This document shows positions 18,795 to 60,340 of a stretch of DNA of 64,000 bases, piece by piece. This stretch comes from Burkholderiales bacterium (GTDB lineage: Bacteria; Pseudomonadota; Gammaproteobacteria; Burkholderiales; Burkholderiaceae_C), in contig JAGWTH010000011.1 in assembly GCA_028868995.1 (NCBI GenBank), positions 1 through 64,000 of the forward strand. The letters are read 5' to 3'. Under the pieces are notes generated by a model that saw only the letters and a program-made list of their open reading frames with translations, had not been told where the DNA came from and ran no database searches. Within the stretch, counting starts at the first letter, position 1. The number at the start of each line of letters is the position of its first letter. A program made the position numbers and the translations under genes.

Positions 18795-18804
18795 ATCCTA
18801 CACT
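18795..18804. promoter_or_regulatory. Overlapping divergent -10-like hexamers for cupin gene and radA
   Basis: TACACT (18799-18804, plus) stands 6 nt before the radA ATG, and TAGGAT (18800-18795, minus) stands 7 nt before the cupin ATG. The two hexamers share two bases. Both spacings would put the transcription start on or beside the start codon. Neither gene has a Shine-Dalgarno sequence. Confidence 0.45.
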
Positions 18805-18810
18805 CGGGCC

Positions 18811-20196
18811 ATGGCGAAGGACAAGACGGTCTATACCTGCACCGAATGCGGGGGGATCACGCCCAAGTGGCAGGGCAAGTGCCCGAACTGCGGGGCCTGG
18901 AACACCCTGGTCGAGGGCGTGGCCGAGGCGCCCGGGGCGAACCGCAACCGTTTCGCCTCGCTGGCGCCGCCCTCCGAGGTGGCGGTGCTGGCCGACATCG
19001 AGGCGGCCGACGTCGCCCGCACGCCCACCGGCATCGAGGAGCTCGACCGGGTGCTGGGCGGCGGCATCGTGGAAGGCGGCGTGGTGCTGATCGGCGGCGA
19101 CCCCGGCATCGGCAAGTCCACGCTGCTGCTGCAGGCGCTGGACGGCCTGCAGCGCGCCGGCGTGCCCACGCTGTACGTGACCGGCGAGGAGAGCGGTGCC
19201 CAGGTCGCGCTGCGCTCGCGCCGCCTGGGCCTGGACCGCTCGCAGGTGAAGGTGCTGGCGGAGATCCAGCTGGAGAAGATCCAGGCCACCATCGCGGCGC
19301 AGCAGCCGGCGGTGGCGGTCATCGACTCGATCCAGACCGTGTATTCCGACCAGCTCACCTCCGCCCCCGGCTCGGTCGCCCAGGTGCGTGAATGCGCGGC
19401 CCATCTCACGCGCGCGGCCAAGGCGGGCGGCACCACCATCATCCTCGTCGGCCACGTGACCAAGGAGGGCGCGCTGGCCGGCCCGCGCGTGCTGGAGCAC
19501 ATGGTCGACACCGTGCTCTATTTCGAGGGCGACACCCATTCCAGCTTCCGCCTGGTGCGCGCGATCAAGAACCGCTTCGGCGCGGTCAACGAGATCGGCG
19601 TGTTCGCGATGACGGAGCGCGGCCTCAAGGGCGTGGCCAATCCCAGCGCGATCTTCCTGTCGCAGCACAGCGAGCCGGTGCCGGGCAGCTGCGTGCTGGT
19701 GACGCTGGAGGGCACCCGGCCGCTGCTGGTGGAGATCCAGGCGCTGGTCGACAGCGGCGGCCCCAGCCCGCGCCGGCTGTCGGTGGGCCTGGAGCGCGAC
19801 CGGCTGGCCATGCTGCTGGCGGTGCTGCACCGGCACGCGGGCGTGGCCTGCCTGGACCAGGACGTGTTCGTCAACGCGGTGGGCGGGGTGCGCATCAGCG
19901 AGCCCGCCGCCGACCTCGCGGTGATGCTGGCGATCGCCTCCTCGCTGCGCGGGCGGGCGCTGCCCCGGGGCTTCATCGCCTTCGGCGAGGTGGGCCTGGC
20001 CGGCGAGGTGCGGCCGGCGCCGCGCGGCCAGGAGCGCCTGCGCGAGGCGGCCAAGCTGGGTTTCTCGATCGCCATCGTCCCCAAGGCCAACGCGCCGAAG
20101 GGCGGGCGCGCCGCCGGCCGGGAGCTGGAGGGCCTCGCCATCCATCCGGTGGAGCGGATCGAGGAGGCGCTGGAGGTGGTGCGCTCGCTGGCGTAG
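18811..20196 (+). CDS. radA: DNA repair protein RadA
   Basis: 461 residues, the family's normal length. RecA-like ATPase that drives branch migration in recombination. Seen: N-terminal zinc finger with Cys10, Cys13, Cys24 and Cys27 (CTECGG / CPNCGAW), Walker A GGDPGIGKST near residue 95, the RadA-specific KNRFGAVNE motif, and a C-terminal Lon-protease-like domain (SVGLERDRLAMLLAVL). No Shine-Dalgarno is seen; a -10-like hexamer directly precedes the start. Confidence 0.96.
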   Translation: MAKDKTVYTCTECGGITPKWQGKCPNCGAWNTLVEGVAEAPGANRNRFASLAPPSEVAVLADIEAADVARTPTGIEELDRVLGGGIVEGGVVLIGGDPGIGKSTLLLQALDGLQRAGVPTLYVTGEESGAQVALRSRRLGLDRSQVKVLAEIQLEKIQATIAAQQPAVAVIDSIQTVYSDQLTSAPGSVAQVRECAAHLTRAAKAGGTTIILVGHVTKEGALAGPRVLEHMVDTVLYFEGDTHSSFRLVRAIKNRFGAVNEIGVFAMTERGLKGVANPSAIFLSQHSEPVPGSCVLVTLEGTRPLLVEIQALVDSGGPSPRRLSVGLERDRLAMLLAVLHRHAGVACLDQDVFVNAVGGVRISEPAADLAVMLAIASSLRGRALPRGFIAFGEVGLAGEVRPAPRGQERLREAAKLGFSIAIVPKANAPKGGRAAGRELEGLAIHPVERIEEALEVVRSLA

Positions 20197-20212
20197 CGGA
20201 CAATCCGCAGCC

Positions 20213-20635
20213 ATGAACCTGCAGAAGATCGTCTGGCCCGCCCTGGCCGTGGTCATGGTGGGATTCGCCTGGCGCGGCTACGGCTGGCCCGGCGTGGCCC
20301 TGGCCGTGGGTGCCATCGTCATGTGGATGCTGATGCACTTCAGCCGCATGATGCGGGTGCTGCACCGGGCCTCGCGGCGGCCGGTGGGCTGGTGCGACAG
20401 CGCCGTCATGCTGAACGCCAAGCTGCGCCCCGGGGTGAGCCTGCTGCACGTGCTCGCCCTGACCCGCGCCCTGGGCGAGCTGGTGAGCCCGCAGGACACC
20501 CAGCCGGAGGTCTTCCGCTGGACCGACGGCACGCAGTCCTCGGTCACCTGCGAGTTCGCCGACGGCCGGCTGGTGAAATGGGAGCTGGCGCGCCCCGCGG
20601 CCGACCCGGACCCGGCCGCGGCGGCCGGGTCGTAA
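20213..20635 (+). CDS. Conserved membrane protein of unknown function
   Basis: 140 residues. Two hydrophobic helices at about residues 6-24 and 26-43 (WPALAVVMVGFAWRGYGWPG), then a cytoplasmic-looking domain of about 95 residues containing VMLNAKLRPGVSLLHVLAL and VFRWTDGTQSSVTCEFADG. It begins 16 bases after radA; GACAAT lies 8 nt before its ATG. Its place between radA and ilvE suggests the same transcript as radA. I do not recognise the family. Confidence 0.72.
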   Translation: MNLQKIVWPALAVVMVGFAWRGYGWPGVALAVGAIVMWMLMHFSRMMRVLHRASRRPVGWCDSAVMLNAKLRPGVSLLHVLALTRALGELVSPQDTQPEVFRWTDGTQSSVTCEFADGRLVKWELARPAADPDPAAAAGS

Positions 20636-59603: not shown

Positions 59604-59632
59604 GCCCGGGCGACCCGCGGTGGCGCTGGGTG

Positions 59633-59638
59633 CAAAAT
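59633..59638 (+). promoter_or_regulatory. -10-like CAAAAT 6 nt before mtnN
   Basis: CAAAAT, six bases, ATG, in the 41-bp gap after fadD; no Shine-Dalgarno is seen. Confidence 0.38.
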
Positions 59639-59644
59639 GCCCCG

Positions 59645-60340
59645 ATGCGCACCGCCATCGTCTCCGCCATGCACGAGGAACTCTCCGCCGTGCTGGCGCT
59701 GCTGCCCGACGAGCGCAGGCAGGTCGCCGGCGGCCGCGAGTTCTGGGTCGGCCACCTGCACGGGCAGGAGGTGGTCGCGGTGCTTTCGCGCATCGGCAAG
59801 GTGGCCGCGGCCACCACGGCCGTCGCGCTGATCGAGCGCTTCGGCGTCGACCGCATCGTTTTCACCGGCGTGGCCGGCGGCCTCGCGCCCGGGGTGAACC
59901 GCGGCGACGTCGTGGTCGCCGACGCCTTCCTGCAGCACGACCTCGATGCCTCGCCGCTGTTCCCGCGCTACGAGGTGCCGCTGTACGGCACCGACCGCTT
60001 CCCCACCGACCCGGCACTGACCGGGCAGCTCGCCGCCGCCGTGCGCCAGGCACTGCACGGCGCGCACGTGCACCGCGGCCTGGTGGTGAGCGGCGACCGC
60101 TTCGTCGCCAGCGCGCCCGAGAGCCTGGCGCTGCAGCAGGCGCTGCCCGATGCGCTGGCGGTGGAGATGGAGGGAGCGGCCTTCGCCCAGGTGTGCCGCG
60201 ACTACGGCGTGCCTTTCGCCGCCGTGCGCACGGTGTCCGACCGCGCCGACGACGCGGCCCATGGCGACTTCCTGAGCTTCATCGACGAGGTCGCGAGCCG
60301 GCACTCGGCGGCCATCGTGCGGGCTTTCCTCGGCGGCTGA
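59645..60340 (+). CDS. mtnN: 5'-methylthioadenosine/S-adenosylhomocysteine nucleosidase
   Basis: 231 residues. Removes adenine from MTA and SAH. Seen: AIVSAMHEELSAVLALL at the N-terminus, VLSRIGKVAAATTAVALIE, FTGVAGGLAPGVNRGDVVVA, SGDRFVAS and the catalytic region VEMEGAAFAQVC, then RTVSDRADDAAHGDF with the acidic catalytic residue. Length fits. Ends 9 bases before a convergent gene. Confidence 0.94.
   Translation: MRTAIVSAMHEELSAVLALLPDERRQVAGGREFWVGHLHGQEVVAVLSRIGKVAAATTAVALIERFGVDRIVFTGVAGGLAPGVNRGDVVVADAFLQHDLDASPLFPRYEVPLYGTDRFPTDPALTGQLAAAVRQALHGAHVHRGLVVSGDRFVASAPESLALQQALPDALAVEMEGAAFAQVCRDYGVPFAAVRTVSDRADDAAHGDFLSFIDEVASRHSAAIVRAFLGG

Follow-up and report, generated by a model that had tools for sequence, protein, structure and literature searches.

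Hexamers resembling -10 elements directly before start codons point to leaderless genes in a Burkholderiales genome and its Comamonadaceae-type relatives

The organisms best known for leaderless genes are archaea, actinobacteria and the Deinococcus-Thermus group. Here we describe hexamers resembling the -10 promoter element which stand 6 to 8 nt before start codons in a stretch of 64,000 nucleotides from a Burkholderiales bacterium (GenBank assembly GCA_028868995.1, contig JAGWTH010000011.1, positions 1 to 64,000), called the window below, and in a larger sample of the same genome. These hexamers are in all likelihood the -10 elements of leaderless genes, the 5' end of the RNA and the mode of translation being read from the DNA.

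According to the sections consulted of the published reports, several described systems come close to this arrangement. Zheng et al. (2011) defined TA-led genes, in which TANNNT stands about 10-12 bp before the start instead of a Shine-Dalgarno (SD) sequence, and for 9 of 71 beta-proteobacterial genomes they give 2.8-10.6% of genes as TA-led (PMC3160421). The present genes resemble these in having such a hexamer shortly before the start, and under a strict motif 70 of 710 classed genes (9.9%; 51/367 first genes, 9/79 intermediate genes and 10/264 operon-internal genes) carry it, near the top of that range, although the methods differ. In Deinococcus-Thermus, a -10 element positioned within a few bp of the open reading frame (ORF), with little other promoter dependence, gives leaderless mRNA, and about 30% of ORFs on average are of this kind (PMC12340547). 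The arrangement is the same here but in another phylum, and the best matches of the window's RadA are from Ramlibacter, not from Deinococcota; as for the -10-only type of promoter, TTG shows no enrichment at spacer 15-17 (3 of our 51 matches). In Burkholderia cenocepacia J2315, 72 genes have their transcription start site (TSS) at the start codon and 42 more within 10 nt, 24 of these transcripts being tRNAs (PMC4603805), and in Cupriavidus metallidurans CH34 4.67% of primary TSSs are leaderless (PMC7563307). Differential RNA sequencing gave the -10 consensus TAnAAT in both species, with regulators over-represented among the leaderless genes (PMC4603805, PMC7563307). Both belong to the same order as the present genome and share with it TAnAAT and a TSS, here a predicted one, at the start codon or no more than a few nt away; there, however, such genes make up a few percent, and a Cupriavidus chromid (200 kb) displays no peak by the present measure (1/117). 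In the consulted parts of the literature searched there is no leaderless report for Comamonadaceae and no differential RNA sequencing paper on Acidovorax, and those of PMC5397173 and PMC10783764 add no such case. Leaderless genes are already known, beta-proteobacteria included; what is added here is their density, their gene-by-gene conservation, the lack of a visible -35 element and, in some relatives, boxes presumably of LexA type which abut the -10 element of radA.

The host genome comprises 3.76 Mb in 81 contigs at ~70% G+C. A sample of 803,654 bases, about a fifth of it, was analysed with a gene caller based on coding statistics and the type of start codon and blind to upstream signals; its training set was the window plus 40 other stretches. 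It called 751 genes, of which 710 were classed after genes running off the end of a stretch, with fewer than 60 bases upstream, without a neighbour in the stretch or with N upstream had been left out. A hexamer was counted as -10-like if it had A at position 2 and T at position 6 together with at least two of T1, T3, A4 and A5. The preliminary description of the window had proposed plotting hexamer position across the genome, and on this sample the plot peaks at 6 nt: first genes with a hexamer number 27 at a spacing of 6 nt, 14 at 7 nt, 10 at 8 nt and 5 at 9 nt (n = 367), with counts of 0-3 at each spacing between 10 and 17 nt. A second, broad rise at about 24-31 nt upstream is read as leadered promoters. 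At 6-8 nt the hexamer is thus found before 51/367 first genes (14%) compared to 4/367 at the control spacing of 13-15 nt (3/367 after retraining of the caller), and 100 dinucleotide shuffles of the same -60..-1 sequences gave a mean of 5.4 and a maximum of 11. Against the local background the Poisson p is about 2e-32, which agrees with the earlier claim that such hexamers are unlikely by chance. The operon-internal genes with the hexamer at this spacing are the 10/264, and the intermediate ones the 9/79, given above; among in-frame internal ATGs it precedes 8 of 2,399. Divergent first genes carry it in 42/206 cases and codirectional ones in 9/161. The feature is thus confirmed, but "widespread" is too broad: it is seen in a large minority of first genes, chiefly those at divergent starts, and the majority of first genes do not belong to this type. 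The median gap of divergent pairs is 61.5 bp where both genes are of this type (6 pairs), 104 bp where one is (30 pairs) and 159 bp where none is (67 pairs; p 8e-5), and pairing of two such genes at divergent junctions is not significant (6/103 pairs, 4.3 expected).

A count free of gene calls was made on the pattern hexamer-Nk-ATG, with k from 6 to 8, at every ATG open for 80 codons, the background being taken at the same codon phase since the uncorrected count shows a 3-nt periodicity. The own genome gave 111 matches against 47.6 expected (p 3.5e-15), and 93 against 43.9 (p 8e-11) without the window. Relatives and outgroups were assembled in several sets. The radA relatives are 80 of the 572 loci encoding a relative; 53 were sorted into named groups for the group counts, and all 80 entered the radA hexamer, LexA-box and gene-call-free counts. 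The family, order and class sets hold 20 genomes each, hand-picked for long contigs and spread from 100, 120 and 75 searched, the order set covering 17 other families and the class set 20 families. At least one genome is apparently common to the 80-locus and family sets (L052 and L166 have the same radA upstream region). The gene radA itself was excluded from the counts for the 80 loci and retained for the own genome, for the family, order and class sets, and for three single genomes, namely G271 of the same genus and G252 and G289 of the family. Without gene calls an excess is seen in G271 (24 vs 8.1), G252 (23 vs 9.2), the 20 family genera (80 vs 33.2), the 80 radA loci (266 vs 165.4) and Deinococcus deserti plasmid 1 (20 vs 12.8, p 0.036), and none in the order set (88 vs 83.9), the class set (93 vs 104.2), the Cupriavidus chromid (19 vs 30.6) or E. 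coli (56 vs 69.0). The order and class sets are lower in G+C and their background is therefore higher. Per 100 kb the excess amounts to 7.9 in the own genome and to 7.0-11.7 in the positive sets.

The same sets were surveyed with gene calls (Table 1). For Deinococcus the caller gave 13 genes in 150 kb, so the deposited annotation was used; the Methylibium group was re-called from another starting model, the first calls being probably shadow ORFs. The annotated E. coli and Deinococcus sets exclude RNA genes, genes truncated at the ends of the stretch, and E. coli mbiA, hokC, ypeD, ysgD and spfP. By mixture share the own genome stands out most, the family set is more distinct than most, and several relatives lie near their shuffles.

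Table 1. First genes with a -10-like hexamer at 6-8 nt and at the control spacing of 13-15 nt, and share of the -10 class in the mixture model with the position weight matrices (PWMs) of the own genome, compared to shuffled sequences
Set	6-8 nt	13-15 nt	n	Mixture share	Shuffled
Own genome	51	3	367	.22	.03
20 family genera	25	2	240	.15	.05
Acidovorax group	13	1	108	.21	.06
Polaromonas/Rhodoferax	11	3	122	.10	.08
Variovorax group	8	2	134	.10	.07
Methylibium group	5	0	37	.34	.11
Ramlibacter/Caenimonas	5	2	33	.25	.16
G271	5	1	76	.13	.06
G252	6	0	64	.11	.08
Limnohabitans	3	0	100	.12	.08
G289	3	4	77	.02	.11
Order set	11	8	167	.11	.08
Class set	12	16	180	.11	.09
Cupriavidus chromid (200 kb)	1	4	117	.01	.05
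E. coli, own caller	3	7	106
E. coli, annotated	0	13	106	.07	.10
D. deserti plasmid 1, annotated	14	3	83	.35	.06

The mixture model had three components, for a -10 motif, for an SD motif and for background; the -10 motif was started from TANAAT with no preset spacing. It assigned 22% of the first genes of the own genome, and 31% of the 206 divergent ones, to the -10 class and 32% to the SD class. The learned motif is TAnAAT (T.53, A.92, n, A.58, A.59, T.93) and the learned spacing 6 nt (.44), 7 nt (.24) or 8 nt (.13). With fixed PWMs, 3.5% of shuffled sequences fell into the -10 class (4.9% for the divergent set). Neither in the 265 internal genes nor in the 161 codirectional first genes did the -10 component keep its motif; it drifted to other patterns. 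When the 51 matches are aligned on the hexamer, the bases separating hexamer and start are rich in G+C, and neither a -35 element nor an extended -10 is visible across them; around leadered -10s TTG occurs in 5/56 at spacer 15-17 and in 5/56 at 18-20, which is nothing clear either.

Conservation was examined gene by gene. In its best segment the window's RadA shares 90% identity with the RadA proteins of Ramlibacter rhizophilus and R. aurantiacus, and it is 95% identical to that of a same-genus genome; other genera named among the radA relatives are Variovorax, Polaromonas, Rhodoferax, Limnohabitans, Acidovorax and similar ones. The strict hexamer is found 6-8 nt before radA in 52 of the 80 relatives, with diverged flanks, and among the 20 family genera in 11 at 6-8 nt and in 17 at 5-9 nt, compared to 2/20 in the order set and 1/20 in the class set; in Mycetohabitans, radA lies 15 nt behind alr in an operon-like place. 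For mnmA, pyrF and the M48 peptidase gene, matches were found in 40, 40 and 36 of 40 genomes and the 30 best loci each were compared, hence the remotest relatives lie outside this comparison. Not counting the own genome, pyrF has the hexamer at 6-8 nt in 22/29 loci and at 5-9 nt in 24/29 (CATCAT in L266 being doubtful), and mnmA in 13/26 and 16/26 respectively, three loci having no resolvable start. Controls at 13-17 nt gave 0 for the orthologues of pyrF, mnmA and M48. N-terminal homology extends as far as the proposed start codon for radA and pyrF and comes within a few residues of it for mnmA.

Two variations on the conserved arrangement were observed. At four pyrF loci (L266, L267, L268 and L275) GACAAT stands some 30-41 nt before the start instead, possibly a switch from a leaderless to a leadered state. 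Upstream of radA, 11 of the 80 relatives have a CTGT-N8-ACAG box (shuffled mean 0.1), which we take to be a LexA-type box (L027, L028, L047, L051, L056, L059, L062, L063, L081, L095 and also L099), and in 10 of the 11 it ends 11-13 nt before the ATG, abutting the -10. This suggests that radA of Rhodoferax/Polaromonas relatives may be an SOS-controlled leaderless gene; the radA upstream region of the window itself is without a CTGT-N8-ACAG box.

In the ordinary geometry of a sigma-70 promoter the -10 hexamer ends 6 nt before +1. A spacing of 6 nt therefore places +1 on the A of the ATG. The preliminary description had proposed leaderless transcription, and this interpretation is supported by the 6-nt peak, the identity of TAnAAT with the -10 consensus of relatives and the conserved spacing before radA, pyrF and mnmA; it is the best available when the consensus, its position, its restriction to first genes and its conservation are taken together. 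The hexamers would be -10 elements of sigma-70-type promoters, with transcription starting on the A of the start codon or 1-2 bases before it, and RNA polymerase would recognise mainly TAnAAT, no -35 hexamer being visible. Such an mRNA would have no 5' leader, so that the ribosome would start on a 5'-terminal AUG, occasionally GUG, most likely by way of 70S ribosomes or an initiator-tRNA-loaded particle. The same genome also has ordinary leadered, SD-led genes, above all inside operons.

The alternative that survives best, although we consider it very unlikely, is that the A/T patch is a translation aid on leadered mRNAs, by binding S1 or loosening structure, and no promoter. Indeed, S1 sites have been discussed in connection with A+T richness ahead of starts that lack an SD sequence (PMC5397173, in the part consulted). 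However, the signal is TAnAAT at a narrow spacing and not loose A/T richness, it is identical to the -10 consensus mapped in relatives (PMC4603805, PMC7563307), and operon-internal starts need translation equally yet seldom have it. Marginally less probable still is that the hexamers are true -10s with translation beginning downstream, so that the mRNAs are leadered. The choice of start is uncertain for the cupin gene (18796 or 18787), mnmA, the NUDIX gene and pyrF, and for the last three the caller placed the starts downstream of those in the preliminary description, which look better; homology to the proposed start in radA, pyrF and nearly mnmA argues against it, as does a hexamer-to-ATG distance that is kept while the flanks change. 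Chance or composition is extremely unlikely, since, although the DNA upstream of first genes is A/T-richer than that upstream of operon-internal genes, the 51 matches at a narrow spacing far exceed every shuffle, the excess persists without gene calls and orthologues conserve it.

Several observations nonetheless weigh against the hexamers being -10 elements of leaderless genes. Unlike in a classical sigma-70 promoter there is no -35 enrichment, the 3/51 TTG at spacer 15-17 being all that was seen. One family genome (G289, 57% G+C) is without excess, both by gene calls (3/77 vs 4/77 at the control) and without them (21 vs 24.2), Limnohabitans reaches only 3/100, and most sets of relatives are barely above their shuffles by the fixed-PWM mixture (for example G271, Variovorax and G252). 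The M48 gene is a weak test, with the hexamer in 3/13 loci at 6-8 nt and in 5/13 at 5-9 nt and the start unresolved in 16/30. Gene starts depend on a home-made caller, which in E. coli recovered 166 of 178 annotated genes and placed the start exactly in 122; given this limited accuracy the peak of the own genome is probably diluted. Lastly, the lack of an SD sequence was rejected, after a masking control, as a further line of evidence in its own right. The earlier statement that these genes have no SD site is true by count (3/51 hexamer genes vs 109/316 other first genes), but with the same six bases masked an SD 4-mer remains in 1/51 hexamer genes and in a mean of 1.7/51 other first genes; the absence is thus mechanical, as the hexamer occupies the place of the SD site, and is no independent evidence. 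A pattern search of the draft genome for the 16S 3' end (anti-SD) gave no match.

As to gene content, ATG starts are commoner among hexamer genes (45/51 vs 231/316, p 0.022). MarR_2 was found in 5 of 50 hexamer genes (one gene below 100 codons being excluded), while the top 25 families of 60 randomly drawn other first genes include RecA, S1, porin, Omp85 and periplasmic binding proteins with no MarR family listed; the comparison is one random draw judged on the best-listed rows of 103 and 131 families. It gives a hint of regulator enrichment among the leaderless genes, in line with the reports in relatives.

A wider proposal, which we hold to be possible rather than probable, is that a Comamonadaceae-type lineage of Burkholderiales has evolved a distinct class of -10-only promoters fused to the start codon, with a core leaderless set of housekeeping and regulatory genes (radA, pyrF, mnmA and MarR-type regulators), including radA with a LexA-type operator abutting its -10, which would unite operator, promoter and translation start in one element, and that its translation machinery may be adapted to this. 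In at least one genus beyond this lineage, Mycetohabitans, radA is instead placed shortly after alr. As sampled families elsewhere in the order show no excess by the same measure, a lineage of Proteobacteria carrying such a signal offers a natural comparison for leader gain and loss and for ribosome adaptation, and what deserves following up is the conservation of single genes across the family. Start-codon annotation in these genomes could be improved using the -10 signal. Kasugamycin is an antibiotic that acts on leadered initiation. Genes of the present type may respond differently to antibiotics of this kind (PMC9581028, in the part consulted).

Gene starts of the window were screened for in-frame starts with a -10-like hexamer 5-9 nt upstream (Table 2). 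The hexamers 6 nt before nine starts named in the preliminary description are all present, eight in the strict list, and those which it had placed at spacings of 7-9 nt before six further genes stand at 7 or 8 nt, for the cupin gene from its second ATG. Pfam backs in outline the names mnmA, NUDIX, orotidine decarboxylase, M48, MarR, GntR/FCD, PNP_UDP_1, metallo-beta-lactamase, response regulator, cupin and the two FAD-binding proteins; the names tcuA, glcE and mtnN are taken from the preliminary description. The GAGAAT before the gene of the single-strand binding protein (42353) is another strict match, though a doubtful one, and shares bases with an SD-like GGAG.

Table 2. Candidate -10 hexamers before start codons in the window
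Hexamer	Position	Strand	Spacing (nt)	Start	Gene and remarks
TACACT	18799..18804	+	6	ATG 18811	radA
TAGGAT	18795..18800	-	7	ATG 18787 (second ATG)	cupin, divergent from radA; 2 bp in common with radA -10
TAGAAT	37232..37237	+	6	ATG 37244	pyrF
CAGAAT	37210..37215	-	8	ATG 37201	EamA transporter; not in preliminary description
GATAAT	45894..45899	-	6	ATG 45887	mnmA
TATTAT	27920..27925	+	6	ATG 27932	M48 peptidase
TAAGAT	33342..33347	+	6	ATG 33354	MarR regulator
TAGATT	33292..33297	-	7	ATG 33284	metallo-beta-lactamase fold, divergent from MarR
GACAAT	29532..29537	-	6	GTG 29525	GntR/FCD regulator
GATAAT	52765..52770	-	6	ATG 52758	NUDIX
CAAAAT	59633..59638	+	6	ATG 59645	nucleosidase/phosphorylase (mtnN-type)
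AACACT	53531..53536	-	6	ATG 53524	no Pfam match; weak, fails counting definition
TACCAT	24984..24989	-	7	ATG 24976	response regulator
TAAAGT	25065..25070	+	7	ATG 25078	AMP-binding enzyme; not in preliminary description
CAGAAT	46954..46959	+	8	ATG 46968	FAD-binding (tcuA-like)
TAACAT	3226..3231	+	8	ATG 3240	FAD-binding (glcE-like)
GACAAT	20199..20204	+	8	ATG 20213	no Pfam match
CACAAT	6043..6048	-	6	ATG 6036	glutathione peroxidase; not in preliminary description

Some further features of these genes were observed. The MarR protein of the window has 5 relatives in the plasmid collection, weak and partial. A plasmid-borne radA, 67% identical to that of the window, is present on the plasmid of Rhodoferax ferrireducens T118 (L307, typed conjugative). 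The RadA matches in G199, G220, G232, G256 and G285 are each broken in two around residues 90-160 within a single long open frame, which may reflect an insertion or a diverged stretch, of uncertain kind. If the cupin gene starts at 18787, its -10 and that of radA overlap by 2 bp (window 18787-18811), so both promoters would hardly be usable simultaneously. The starts of pyrF and the EamA gene are 42 bp apart with 16 bp between their -10s (window 37201-37244), which would place each at the expected -35 position of the other, and a similar 16-bp pair is seen at L122 (5431-5472).

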